A stretch of 62,470 nt of DNA from Opitutia bacterium (lineage in GTDB: Bacteria; Verrucomicrobiota; Verrucomicrobiia; Opitutales; Opitutaceae). The translations under genes were made by a program, and so were the position numbers. The stretch's first letter is position 1. Each line of letters starts with the position of its first letter. Shown here piece by piece: positions 9,558 through 16,490 of this stretch. The DNA lies in assembly GCA_002737275.1 (NCBI GenBank), contig NSIG01000029.1, forward strand, positions 1 to 62,470. Reading direction: 5' to 3'. The notes below the pieces were generated by a model. That model was not told the origin of the DNA and searched no databases. It saw nothing but the letters and a program-made list of their open reading frames with translations.

Positions 9558-10673
9558 CTAACGCATCGCCTTCAAAACGACGGTCAATTCGTCGCCGCGC
9601 TCGACGGTGATCGCGCCGCTGCCTTCAAGCAGGCGGACAAAGCCTTCGACGTTGTCGGCGGCGAAGGTGCCGCCCACGGGGCGCTCGGCGATCGATGGAT
9701 CGCCGACGACAAGTTGGAGGCGGTTGCGGCGGTTGAACTGGGCGACGACGTCGCGCAGCGGAGTCTCGGAAAACACGAGTTTGCGTTCCTGCCACGAGAG
9801 GGCTTCGCGCAGGGCGTCGGCGGCGATTTTTTCCACGGTGGGCGCGGCGTTCGACGGGGCGGAGGGCAGCGTGAAAACGGTGCGCTCGTTGGCCGTCAGG
9901 AACGTCGGGCTACCGCTCGTCCGACCGACGGTTGGGGCGTTGCGTTCGTCGCGTGACCGCCCGGCGGAGGAGGAAAGCGCGTTAGGGACCACGCGCTCCA
10001 CCTCGGCGACGGAGACTTTGCCCTCGGTGACGAGCACCTCGACGGCGGTGGTGGCCAGGCGGACGTTAAACGCGGTGCCCACCGCGCGCACGGCAACGCC
10101 TCCGGCGGAAACGGTGAACGGTCGCGCGGGATCGGGTGCGACGGTGAAGTGGGCCTCGCCGGCGGCGAGGTCCACGCGGCGCTCGCGCGGGTCGAGGGAG
10201 ACGCGGAGCCGCGTGTCGGCGTTGAGCTCGAGGACGGAGCCGTCGGCCAGGACGACGCGTTCGTAGCCGCCGGCGGAGGTGGCGAAAATCTGGTCGGCCG
10301 CAGGATTTGGCGGCGTAAGCCAGCGGGCGCCGGCGAATGCGAGCGCGAGGCCGGCGGCGAGGCCGACGGCGACGCCGACGGCGACGCGCAGCGGGGTAAG
10401 GATGCGCCGGGTGGCAGGGGCGGGAGCGCGCGGCGCGCGAAGCGGCGCGGGGAACTCGACTACCGGCAGCAGCTCCGCGCGGACGAGCGGCATTTTTTCC
10501 AGCAACGCACAGGCGGCTTCAAGCCGGGCGACGGCGGCGCCATGGCGGGGATCGGCGCGGCACCAGCGGTCAAAATCGCGTTTCTGCGCCGATGAGAAAC
10601 CCTCGGCGCGCGCGGTCAACCAGTTGGCGGCGACCTCCTCGATCGGATCTTCGTAGTCGGATGCTTCGGTCAT
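9558..10673 (-). CDS. FecR-type transmembrane anti-sigma factor/regulator
   Basis: FecR proteins sit in the inner membrane and pass a signal from the STN domain of a TonB receptor to an ECF sigma factor. Seen: a cytoplasmic N-terminal domain with DFDRWCRADPRHGAAVARLE, one membrane segment near residues 95-115 (VAVGVAVGLAAGLALAFAG), then the periplasmic FecR domain with VVLADGSVLELNADTRLRVSL, RRVDLAAGEAHFTVAPDPARPF and VAVRAVGTAFNVRL. A C-terminal secretin/STN-like segment ends the protein (LVFSETPLRDVVAQFNRR). Its start overlaps the sigma-factor stop by four bases (ATGA), and the TonB receptor follows after 27 bases, giving a sigma-FecR-receptor operon. Confidence 0.9.
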   Translation of the reverse strand: MTEASDYEDPIEEVAANWLTARAEGFSSAQKRDFDRWCRADPRHGAAVARLEAACALLEKMPLVRAELLPVVEFPAPLRAPRAPAPATRRILTPLRVAVGVAVGLAAGLALAFAGARWLTPPNPAADQIFATSAGGYERVVLADGSVLELNADTRLRVSLDPRERRVDLAAGEAHFTVAPDPARPFTVSAGGVAVRAVGTAFNVRLATTAVEVLVTEGKVSVAEVERVVPNALSSSAGRSRDERNAPTVGRTSGSPTFLTANERTVFTLPSAPSNAAPTVEKIAADALREALSWQERKLVFSETPLRDVVAQFNRRNRLQLVVGDPSIAERPVGGTFAADNVEGFVRLLEGSGAITVERGDELTVVLKAMR

Positions 10674-12030: not shown

Positions 12031-12155
12031 GGTGGAACCCGATGTCCTCATCGGGGTTTTCAGGGTGCTTTCGGAAGGCTCGCCGAGGCGGCGGGCTGGG
12101 GCGGGCGCGGGCGCGAAACAAAGCCCGATGGGGACATCGGGCTCCACCTTGGAGT
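12031..12155. repeat. Inverted pair of small palindromic elements (CCCGAT...ATCGGG family)
   Basis: One copy (about 12031-12056) reads ggtggaacccgatgtcctca then tcgggg; the second (about 12125-12152) reads aagcccgatggggacatcgg then gctccacc. They are reverse complements of each other with few differences and lie about 70 bases apart. Each has its own short hairpin (CCCGAT / ATCGGG). A third member with different but still complementary arms lies inside the dehydratase gene at 15408-15435. Confidence 0.75.
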
Positions 12156-12263: not shown

Positions 12264-12332
12264 CGGCGGTAGTTTTCCGGGCGCCCCGCCTGCTCTTATA
12301 CCGGCGACTTTTAAATTTTAGACTTTTTGAGC

Positions 12333-12388
12333 GTAGCCGCGAGCGTGAGCGAGTGGTCGAACCACCACTCGCTCACGCTCGCGGCTAC
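12333..12388. repeat. REP-like perfect palindrome, 25-base arms
   Basis: Left arm 12333-12357 starts gtagccgcgagcgtgagcga; right arm 12364-12388 is its exact reverse complement; the loop is cgaacc. It lies about 40 bases past the glpX stop, so the transcript could fold into a very stable hairpin. A diverged relative sits at the end of the dehydratase gene near 16440-16490. Confidence 0.85.
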
Positions 12389-12426
12389 GGATTTAAGTAA
12401 AGTCCAAAACCCAACAGGCGGCGGTA

Positions 12427-13725: not shown

Positions 13726-16443
13726 ATGCCCCAGACTCTTCTCCTGCAAGACGTCGGTCGCCTGCCCGCCCCCGGGGACAATGTCGCGATCGCGGTGCGG
13801 TCCTTGGAGGCGGGGACGGTGATCGAGCTCGACGGGGCGCCGCGCCCGCTCGCGCAGCACATCCTCGAAGGTCATCGCTTCGCCATCCGGGCCATCGCGC
13901 CGGGCGAGGCGTTGCTCTCGTGGGGGCTGCCCTTTGGCCATGCGCTCACGGCGATCACGGCGGGTGACTACGTGTGCAACGCCTCGATGCTCGAATCGCT
14001 CGCGGTGCGGCGGTTGCCGTTCGCGTTGCCGGCGCGGGCGAATTTCGCGGACCACCTCGAGCCGTTTGAGTTGAACGAGGCGACCTTCCGGCCCGGCCCG
14101 GCGGTGGCGCCGGCGCCGGTGGCGCGCACGTTCGCCGGTTATCGCCGGCCGGGGACGCGCGGCGTGGGCACGCGCAACACCGTGGTCGTCCTCGGCACGA
14201 CGTCGCGCACGGCGAGTTTTGCGCGGCAACTCGCGGCGCGGTTGCAGGTGATGGCGCGGGTGTTTCCGGCACTCGATGGCATCGTGGCCATCGCGCACAC
14301 CGAGGGCGGCGGGCCGGGCGAACCGAACAACGCGACCGAAGTCCTGCGGGCGCTCGCGGGGTTCATGGTGCACCCGAATGTGGGCGCGGTGCTCGCGGTG
14401 GATGCGGGCGGCGAGCCGATCACCAACGCCCGGCTGCGGGCGTTTATGGCCGCGCACGGCTACCCGCTCGGCGATGTGCCGCACGCGTTTCTCAGCAGCG
14501 GTGGCGGGCTCGCGGCGGCGCTGGCCGAGGGCGAGGCGCTCGTGCGCAGGTGGTTGCCGGCGGTGGCGGCGCAGCGGCGCACGGCGGAGCCGTTGAGCGC
14601 GTTGCGGGTGGCGCTCCAGTGCGGCGGGTCGGATGCGTTTTCGGGCGTGTCGGGCAATCCGCTCGCCGGGGCGATGGTGCACGAGTTGGTGCGCCACGGC
14701 GGTATCGGCGTGCTGTGCGAGACCGACGAAGTGGCCGGCGGCGAGGCCTACATCATGAAAGCCGTGCGCGACTTGCCGACGGCGCGGGCGTTGCTCGGGA
14801 GCATTGCGCGGTTCCGCGCGCGGCTCGGCTGGCACGGGCTTAGCCCCGAGGCCAATCCCTCGGCGGGCAACAAATTCCGCGGACTCTACAACATCGCGCT
14901 CAAGTCCCTCGGCGCCGTGCACAAAAAAGATCCGCGCACGCCGGTGAACTCCGTGATCAACTACGGCGAGCCGCTGACCGCGCCCGGTTTTTACTTCATG
15001 GACAGCCCGGGCAACGACCTCGAAGGCATCGCCGGGCAAGTGGCGGCCGGGTGTAACCTGATCCTCTTCGTCACGGGGAACGGCTCGATCACCAACTTCC
15101 CGTTCGTCCCCACGCTCAAGGTCACGACGACCACGCGGCGGCACCAACTGCTCATCCACGAGATGGATATCAACGCCGGCCGCTACCTCGACGGCGAGAC
15201 GATGGCCGCGCTCACGGAGGATTCGTTCAACCTGCTGGTGGAGACGGCGTCGGGGAAAAAATCCCGCGGCGAACACGCGGGCCACGCGCAGACCTCGCTC
15301 TGGCGCAACTGGCGGCAGACCGACGGCTCGCAGCTCGCGGCCTTGCGCGCGCGGACGGAGCCGGATGGCCGGCCGCTTGACGTAAAGTGCTCGATCGAAG
15401 GGGCGAATAAGCCCGCTAGGGACAGCGGGCTCCACCCATTGCATAATGGTGCGCGGATGGCGACGGAGCGAGTGGGGCTGGTGTTGCCGACGAGCATGTG
15501 TGCGGCGCAGATCGCGCGGCTCGCCGCCGACCGGATGAACGCGAGCGGGCGGGCGCAGGCGCTCGGGCTCGACCGGTTTGTGGCGCTCACGCACACGGAG
15601 GGCTGCGGGTTTGGCGGCGAGTCGATGTATCGACTGCTGCTGCGCACCTATCTCGGCTACGTGACGCACCCGAATGTCGCCGCCGCGCTCCTGCTCGAGC
15701 ACGGCTGTGAAAAAATCACCAACGATTCGATGCGCCAGCAATTCGACCGCGCGGGTCTGCCGCTGGCACGTTTCGGTTGGGCGAGCGTGCAGCTCGACGG
15801 CGGCATCGATCTCGCGCTCGGCCGGATCGAGGCATGGTTCGCCTTGGCCGGTGCCGCGCTACCGCCGGCGTCGGGGCGGCCGACGGATCTCGGCGCGCTC
15901 ACGGTGGGTTTGCTAAGCGCCGGCCCGGTGGACGCGACGAGCGCGGCGACGTTGGCCCGGCTAGCGCGCGCGATCCTTGCGGCGGGTGGCACGGTGTTGT
16001 TGCCCGAGGGCGACGGCTTGTTGGCGGCGGAGGAGTTTCGGACCGCGGTGCTCGGGGCGACGCCCGCGCGCGCGACGCTGGCCTACGGCCAGCCGGTGAC
16101 GGCGGCGGGCCTGCACCTCGTGGCGACCGAGACCGATCACTGGAGCGAGAATGTCGCGGGCCTCGGTGGCAGCGGCGCGCACGTGCTGCTGGGCTTGGTC
16201 GGTGATTCGCCGCAGCAAGGGCATCCAATGGTGCCGGTGGTGCAGGTAGCGGCGCCGGGCGCACTCGCACCGACGGCGGCGGGCGATGTGGATGTCGTGC
16301 TGGCGGGTGAGGTGTCGGTCGACGAGGCGACCTTGCGCGAACTGTTGTTGACGATCGTCCAACGCGAGCGGCAACCCGTCGCAAATATCGGTGGTTTCGT
16401 GGATTTCCAACTCTCGCGGGGATTGCTCGGGGTCTCGACGTGA
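13726..16443 (+). CDS. Altronate/galactarate dehydratase-like protein (UxaA family), double-module form
   Basis: UxaA-family enzymes dehydrate sugar acids such as altronate or galactarate to 2-keto-3-deoxy acids. Start chosen at ATG 13726 (MPQTLLLQDVGRLPAPGDNV), which begins the SAF domain; an in-frame ATG at 13645 adds an unlikely Arg/Cys-rich leader. Order: SAF (about 1-90); first dehydratase module with HTEGGGPGEPNN near 191 and HPNV; central core (CGGSDAFSGVSGNPLAG, ETDEVAGGEAYIMKAV, NPSAGNKFRGLYNIALKSLG, PGNDLEGIAGQVAAGCNLIL, GNGSITNFPFVPTLKVTTTT); then a second module with LPTSMCAAQIARLAADRM, HTEGCGFGGES near 624 and THPNV. At about 905 residues it is far longer than the common roughly 500-residue UxaA. 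Codons 562-579 contain an inserted palindromic repeat. It stands alone, divergent from glpX; no uronate genes adjoin it. Confidence 0.82.
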   Translation: MPQTLLLQDVGRLPAPGDNVAIAVRSLEAGTVIELDGAPRPLAQHILEGHRFAIRAIAPGEALLSWGLPFGHALTAITAGDYVCNASMLESLAVRRLPFALPARANFADHLEPFELNEATFRPGPAVAPAPVARTFAGYRRPGTRGVGTRNTVVVLGTTSRTASFARQLAARLQVMARVFPALDGIVAIAHTEGGGPGEPNNATEVLRALAGFMVHPNVGAVLAVDAGGEPITNARLRAFMAAHGYPLGDVPHAFLSSGGGLAAALAEGEALVRRWLPAVAAQRRTAEPLSALRVALQCGGSDAFSGVSGNPLAGAMVHELVRHGGIGVLCETDEVAGGEAYIMKAVRDLPTARALLGSIARFRARLGWHGLSPEANPSAGNKFRGLYNIALKSLGAVHKKDPRTPVNSVINYGEPLTAPGFYFMDSPGNDLEGIAGQVAAGCNLILFVTGNGSITNFPFVPTLKVTTTTRRHQLLIHEMDINAGRYLDGETMAALTEDSFNLLVETASGKKSRGEHAGHAQTSLWRNWRQTDGSQLAALRARTEPDGRPLDVKCSIEGANKPARDSGLHPLHNGARMATERVGLVLPTSMCAAQIARLAADRMNASGRAQALGLDRFVALTHTEGCGFGGESMYRLLLRTYLGYVTHPNVAAALLLEHGCEKITNDSMRQQFDRAGLPLARFGWASVQLDGGIDLALGRIEAWFALAGAALPPASGRPTDLGALTVGLLSAGPVDATSAATLARLARAILAAGGTVLLPEGDGLLAAEEFRTAVLGATPARATLAYGQPVTAAGLHLVATETDHWSENVAGLGGSGAHVLLGLVGDSPQQGHPMVPVVQVAAPGALAPTAAGDVDVVLAGEVSVDEATLRELLLTIVQRERQPVANIGGFVDFQLSRGLLGVST
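15408..15435. repeat. Palindromic element inserted in-frame in the dehydratase gene
   Basis: Reads aagcccgctagggacagcgg then gctccacc. It matches the copy at about 12125-12152 in both flanks and in the central ggac, but the arm bases differ in a paired way (GAT/ATC there, GCT/AGC here), so the hairpin is kept. In the protein it adds NKPARDSGLHPLHNG between SIEGA and ARMATERVG. A second small palindrome (cattgcataatg) follows it. Confidence 0.8.
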
Positions 16444-16490
16444 GCGCTTGGTGGTTCGCCCACTCGCTCACGCTTGAAGCTACGCTCAGA
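16436..16490. repeat. Diverged REP-like palindrome overlapping the dehydratase stop codon
   Basis: The stretch cgtgagcgcttggtgg pairs imperfectly with cccactcgctcacg just downstream, and continues with cttgaagctacg, which resembles the right arm of the perfect palindrome at 12333-12388. The left arm includes the TGA stop (16441-16443), so the element may also act as a transcript end. Confidence 0.55.

Follow-up and report, generated by a model that had tools for sequence, protein, structure and literature searches.

The dehydratase gene and the repeat in its linker

The stretch of DNA analysed here (the window, 62,470 nucleotides) carries on its plus strand a two-module gene at 13726-16443, whose ATG lies at 13726 and whose stop codon ends at 16443. 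Pfam matches the product to SAF, GD_AH_second and GD_AH_C, the latter two each in two stretches. It consists of two related dehydratase modules in tandem, and the galactarate dehydratase 6u7l is matched over residues 18-514. The score against the NCBIfam galactarate dehydratase equivalog is 204.5 and its cut-off is 730.85, so galactarate is a candidate substrate, and the product is called galactarate/altronate-dehydratase-like. The named records among the closest relatives of the gene (best 80 of 569 loci) include Opitutaceae, two of them labelled Lacunisphaera.

The modules are joined by a linker with a variable core, W529-G584 (15310-15477, plus strand), which was compared across 102 orthologue hits (99 distinct linkers) and measures 40-70 aa, with a median of 53. 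The orthologues were taken from the best 80 of 569 related loci in one search and from another 30 related loci, of which L047-L054 were omitted because they covered only part of the protein. Inside the genus its length is 56 aa in the present gene; the two nearest relatives, G010 and G005, have 58 and 54, G004 has 55, G011 52 and seven other members 43-47. An AlphaFold model built with 40 sequences reached a mean pLDDT of 89.0, with neither a 4-residue helix nor a 3-residue strand in 541-572; confidence was lowest in 551-570 (block means of 67 for 551-560 and 60 for 561-570), and the sole stretch under 50 was residues 558-561.

A REP element occupies positions 15410-15436 of this linker (minus strand), with arms at 15410-15417 and 15424-15431 and a loop at 15418-15423. 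The plus strand reads AGCCCGCT AGGGAC AGCGGGCT CCACC, so that in the minus-strand reading a GTGG tag lies at the 15435 end and directly adjoins a perfect stem of 8 bp. The element is in-frame in the open reading frame and encodes about 9 residues, K562-H570. Folded as single-strand DNA, 15396-15450 gave -12.4 kcal/mol (z -2.57), and 5 of 200 shuffles folded as well. When the insert is mapped on the structural model, as had been proposed, it is predicted to lie in the least ordered and least confident stretch of the protein, between the modules. The consensus of the dispersed family to which it belongs has no stop codon in any of the 6 frames, and the gene copy has stops in 2 of 6; an element of this family is usually open to translation, so that the frame is kept or lost chiefly through its total length.

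The original prediction of a palindromic repeat lying in-frame in an enzyme gene was therefore correct in its core, at 15410-15436, but most of what it attached to the repeat has to be given up. It had credited the element with about 16 additional residues, and a clean gain of that size is not seen: the REP part accounts for about 9 (562-570), and at 56 aa the linker lies between those of the nearest relatives (58 and 54), the nine further members measured in the genus having 43-55. PLHNGAR, to the right of the REP-encoded part, aligns with native linker (LFQNGAR in G035, LFPIGAR in L153). The suggested target duplication, ggggcg/ggtgcg, is unsupported on both sides, since the right ggtgcg also occurs in G010 (ggtgcc in G035) and is hence native, and G010 and G005 both lack the left ggggcg. 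No relative with a clean empty site came to light, the linker being about equally long in the nearest ones. The original prediction fared better against orthologues of other genera, as the same residues were not found there among the 102 linkers compared. About 30 nt to the left of the element (15387-15409 included) are unlike G010 and G005, whereas the 1500 bp upstream of the variable core are 97% identical to both; a query of 15380-15465 matched elsewhere solely over the REP part, with no repeat recovered from this left flank.

The dispersed family and a putative transposase partner

The family was searched with the pattern AGCCCGNNNGGGACNNCGGGCTCCACC, allowing up to 3 mismatches, in the window and in the genome that holds it (2.65 Mb, 68% complete). 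The window contains 4 matches, where 100 shuffles averaged 0.00. The genome-wide search gave 18 matches spread over several contigs, against 1 with the reversed control; one of them, C20 with 3 mismatches, appears to match by chance, which leaves a low copy number of about 17. The gene copy agrees with the consensus at 24 of 27 bases, loop and tag included. Two of the other copies in the window form a head-to-head pair, whose right member has consensus arms and lies in intergenic DNA at 12122-12148 (minus strand; previously placed at 12125-12152) and whose left member is at 12031-12057 (plus strand, 3 mismatches to the pattern). The remaining copy, at 9976-10002 (minus strand, 2 mismatches), lies in-frame in a FecR-like gene (9558-10673, minus strand), where it sits just past the FecR domain and encodes VERVVPNAL. 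This peptide is nearly the same as VERVDPNAL, found in the dehydratase linker of two Opitutae MAGs (L155 and L159). Across the genome single 27-bp copies are common, and three head-to-head pairs (C7, C10 and C91, six places) have their tags outward.

Covariation was assessed on 14 distinct rows, after the 18 matches had been reduced by C20, which is doubtful, and by three duplicates of the most frequent copy. The 8-pair stem is 94.6% paired in this alignment, and two-sided changes occur at 3 stem pairs, a number as high in 22 of 500 shuffles; the covariation score was reached by 0 of 500, which bears out the earlier claim that the arms co-vary with other family members. The most variable stem pair is A-U in 9 rows, U-A in 4 and C-G in 1, the C-G row being the gene copy.

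With 27 bp in total and an 8-bp stem, the element falls inside the range given for the GTAG superfamily (a palindrome of 20-40 bp with a stem of 6-13 bp), and it is best read as a REP of that superfamily carrying the GTGG form of the tag, a new element of a known kind. The 2013 survey of Di Nocera et al. describes most GTAG-20 elements of Opitutus terrae as having the tag mutated to GTGG, and reports many intragenic REPs in that species (PMC3733652). As described in that survey, GTAG-20 elements have in common with ours the tag, perfect stem, short loop and complementary stem sub-families, as well as head-to-head pairs, dispersal and some copies in-frame in genes; the likeness to GTAG-20 in particular is drawn from the description of its GTGG tag, and the copy number here is low. 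Palindromes in-frame in protein genes are reported there from several species (PMC3733652). The Rickettsia palindromic elements are likewise palindromic repeats in-frame in protein genes (PMC10969869, PMC3733652), but a review gives their length as about 150 bp (PMC10969869), far from the 27 bp found here, and the present element differs from them also in its GTGG tag and in having a RAYT-like partner in the genus.

With a looser pattern (up to 2 mismatches), 39 of 57 genomes had matches, many of these genomes at or under the control level (for example 7 against 16 in G018 and 4 against 11 in G034). A clear excess over control was seen in G015 (95 against 9), G029 (59 against 5), G035 (58 against 8), G028 (48 against 6), G005 (24 against 2) and the genome under study (19 against 3). 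In G005, which belongs to the same genus as the window and has a dehydratase protein 95% identical, two head-to-head pairs of the element flank a Y1_Tnp gene (L115). The product scores 29.3 bits against Pfam Y1_Tnp (cut-off 23), and among the Y1_Tnp loci fetched from relatives, 20 in all and small or partial, L115 is the sole one with the element on both sides. Twelve of the remaining 19 have their own, different tagged hairpins on both sides and 7 do not, and those 12 serve as positive controls. L115 is likely to encode the transposase partner of the family, with a putative, RAYT-like activity. TnpA-REP proteins are described as binding and cleaving a single-stranded hairpin, the tag being able to help in the choice of cleavage site, and in one system put to the test cleavage also took place with a GTGG tag (PMC8266576). 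The arrangement in G005, a small gene for a putative Y1-type transposase flanked by paired elements, resembles the REPtrons described in the same work (PMC8266576), with the difference that the transposase was not found in the incomplete genome of the window.

This genome, 68% complete, yielded no transposase gene with the element at its flanks. Its own Y1_Tnp gene, at the locus L055, was rejected as a partner because the element is absent from that 3.3-kb locus, and the top-scoring Y1_Tnp loci of the search (L085-L113) were set aside with just one 3-mismatch match among them (L086), taken as chance. The L055 gene (1398-2413, 311 aa), the sole Y1_Tnp gene detected in the genome, is bounded by inverted repeats containing GGGGTCTGGCCGTT, which are not REPs.

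Decay of the element, the arm change and the origin of the repeat

The dehydratase genes of G010, whose protein is 97% identical to the one described here, and of G005 hold decayed but recognisable versions of the element in their linkers. Bases identical to the consensus number 24 of 27 in our gene copy, 22 in G010 and 20 in G005, and by hand count about 5 of 8 contiguous pairs are left in each relative, the inner five in G010 and an outer five, with one G-T, in G005. A full stem is thus not required in the gene, though some pairing remains. With a matrix derived from the intergenic copies the linker scored 30.8 in this gene, 20.0 in G010, 14.9 in G005 and 14.3 in G004; elsewhere in the 102 genes, away from the linker region, the highest score was 13.4.

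The intergenic copy has GAT/ATC where the gene copy has GCT/AGC, so that one pair differs on both sides, from A-T to C-G. Since this state is common to the gene copy and G010, it is older than their split. The GCT/AGC variant was not found elsewhere in 13 genomes of the genus with up to 1 mismatch, and a GCT/AGC sub-family was rejected as donor, a ready-made donor copy being absent from those genomes. The double change could have arisen by a template-switch correction between the arms or by the insertion of a variant copy. Template switching during replication can, as described, copy one arm onto the other in a single event and without selection (PMC8794818), and most REP families are reported to hold sub-families with alternative complementary stem residues (PMC3733652). 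Selection for the hairpin is unnecessary to explain the double change and is the least likely of its origins. The original prediction had taken the changed arms as a sign of selection on the structure, or of a mechanism requiring it; this is not borne out, given the decayed stems of G010 and G005 (about 5 of 8 pairs kept), the position of the change at the most variable pair of the family, the norm for REP families and the availability of template switching. Matched arm changes in such repeats are alone no evidence for selection on structure.

We consider it probable that the element is a GTGG-tagged REP of the GTAG superfamily that entered the linker DNA before the split from the two nearest relatives and was tolerated there. 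The spread of such elements is attributed to REP-associated tyrosine transposases (RAYT, TnpA-REP); a RAYT would have placed this copy in interdomain-linker DNA, and it may have persisted there because the reading frame was kept and because an unstructured linker accepts very different peptides. The repeat is presumably of no use to the enzyme and gives the impression of genomic clutter that is tolerated, not of a selected device. It is unlikely that no insertion took place and that native linker DNA resembling the tag side was turned palindromic by template switching or chance. The motif GC(G/C)CTCCA(C/G) at the corresponding linker place in L153, G035 and G004, together with a linker no longer than in the two nearest relatives, would agree with such an origin, but the agreement with the consensus extends to loop and tag (24 of 27 bases, with 22 and 20 in the relatives), 0.00 matches are expected in the window, and the motif in L153, G035 and G004 may in turn derive from an earlier copy of this family.

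Maintenance of the hairpin by selection in the gene, as an mRNA or DNA structure with the arm change as a selected compensation, strikes us as quite improbable. The perfect stem of this gene, the two-sided change shared with G010 and the roughly five pairs still kept in each relative speak for it; against this, three of the 8 pairs have been lost in G010 and in G005, at different ends, orthologues with intact reading frames are without any such hairpin, and the change fell on the pair that varies most in the family. A MITE-like element or an insertion-sequence end with target duplication, in place of a REP, is very improbable: inverted pairs can be read as the ends of a small element, and a Y1 transposase is associated in G005, but single 27-bp copies are common, the flanks support no target duplication (the right is native and the left absent from the two nearest relatives), and the combination of tag, hairpin and small Y1 transposase fits REP/RAYT anatomy. 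Read as a tolerated REP, the suspected device becomes an anchored example of a mobile repeat of known kind inside a protein gene, and the genus also offers its likely transposase partner.

Different repeats in the same linker

The linkers of other orthologues hold repeats of other kinds. Those of L155 and L159 contain a perfect GGTGGAGCGCGTTGACCCCAACGCGCT on the opposite strand, a repeat with 44 and 48 matches in the respective genomes against 2 and 3. The linker of G035 contains GTGGAACCCGACGTCCCGGCGGGTTC, with a 7-bp stem, and a second, inverted copy to its right by eye; as the left copy scored 7.9 in an ungapped matrix scan, under the best outside site of its own gene (9.7), this case rests on the tagged stem and on the reading by eye. 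L153 (Lacunisphaera sp.) carries GTAG-CCGGGGTC-GGT-GACCCCGG and a shorter tagged stem of the gene element's family, which is scarce in that genome (4 against 1); the GTAG-CCGGGGTC-GGT-GACCCCGG type of hairpin flanks Y1_Tnp genes in G005, G001 and G015 and is common in G015 (67 against 0). In G029 a pair of GGGCGGG-type hairpins was read by eye, of which the script detected one 8-bp stem, and elsewhere in its genome there is one 23-bp match (E 0.001) besides weaker ones. The G034 linker (L037, 3125-3245) contains a longer dispersed repeat with three further genome copies, 83-88% identical over 64-98 bp.

In a tree of 35 genes built without the linker the repeat carriers fall in separate places, and several have tree neighbours without the respective element: L186 beside L155 and L159 (100/100), L171 beside G029 (100/100) and L151 beside G035 (80/80). 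Independent gains of the linker repeats are likely on this sequence evidence; the right-hand copies of the genus, of G035 and of L153 could instead go back to one old insertion followed by losses and replacements. Tagged hairpins were counted after identical linkers had been dropped (99 of 102 kept). The 35 genes with at least 55% identity have 7 in 3480 linker bp against 25 in 87813 other bp (p 1.7e-4) or, with stems of at least 8, 5 in the linker against 20 elsewhere (p 0.002); the p value becomes 0.001 without L159, a near-copy of L155, and 0.005 when L151 is also removed. No enrichment was found in the 64 genes below 55% identity (2 against 39, p 0.44; stems of at least 8, 2 against 24, p 0.24). 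The rows are related, so that these p values are too small, and the enrichment suggested by the sequences is modest.

These observations suggest a tolerant site that was filled repeatedly, by REPs or by a dispersed repeat, in Opitutales orthologues. Whether the linker is a recurrent landing site, in which at least four Opitutales lineages independently acquired different dispersed repeats in-frame (REPs of several families, single or paired, and one longer repeat) and REP traffic keeps providing raw linker peptide for one enzyme, seems to us evenly balanced. Our search of the literature on intragenic REPs, linkers between domains, REPINs and Opitutus listed no case of a single linker that holds different repeats in different genera; the nearest precedent comes from recB, where X. 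campestris and X. oryzae are described as having different REPs at roughly one position (PMC3733652). The site is unusual but precedented, and the repeated filling of one linker is the part that deserves more work. Different repeats in one linker in several lineages form a natural series in which to follow the entry of mobile repeats into coding DNA, the preservation or decay of their arm pairing, and a possible effect of repeat-derived linker peptides on the enzyme.

In a more distant orthologue (G056, L044) the linker shows a stretch of tandem-like CATCAGCCATCAACC units, seen by eye only. Close to the dehydratase gene, a perfect 26-bp inverted repeat at 12332-12389 has GTAG at its outer ends and folds at -38.7 kcal/mol, and a stretch 78% similar to it lies at the dehydratase stop codon (16439-16484); together they probably represent a further REP family in pairs.
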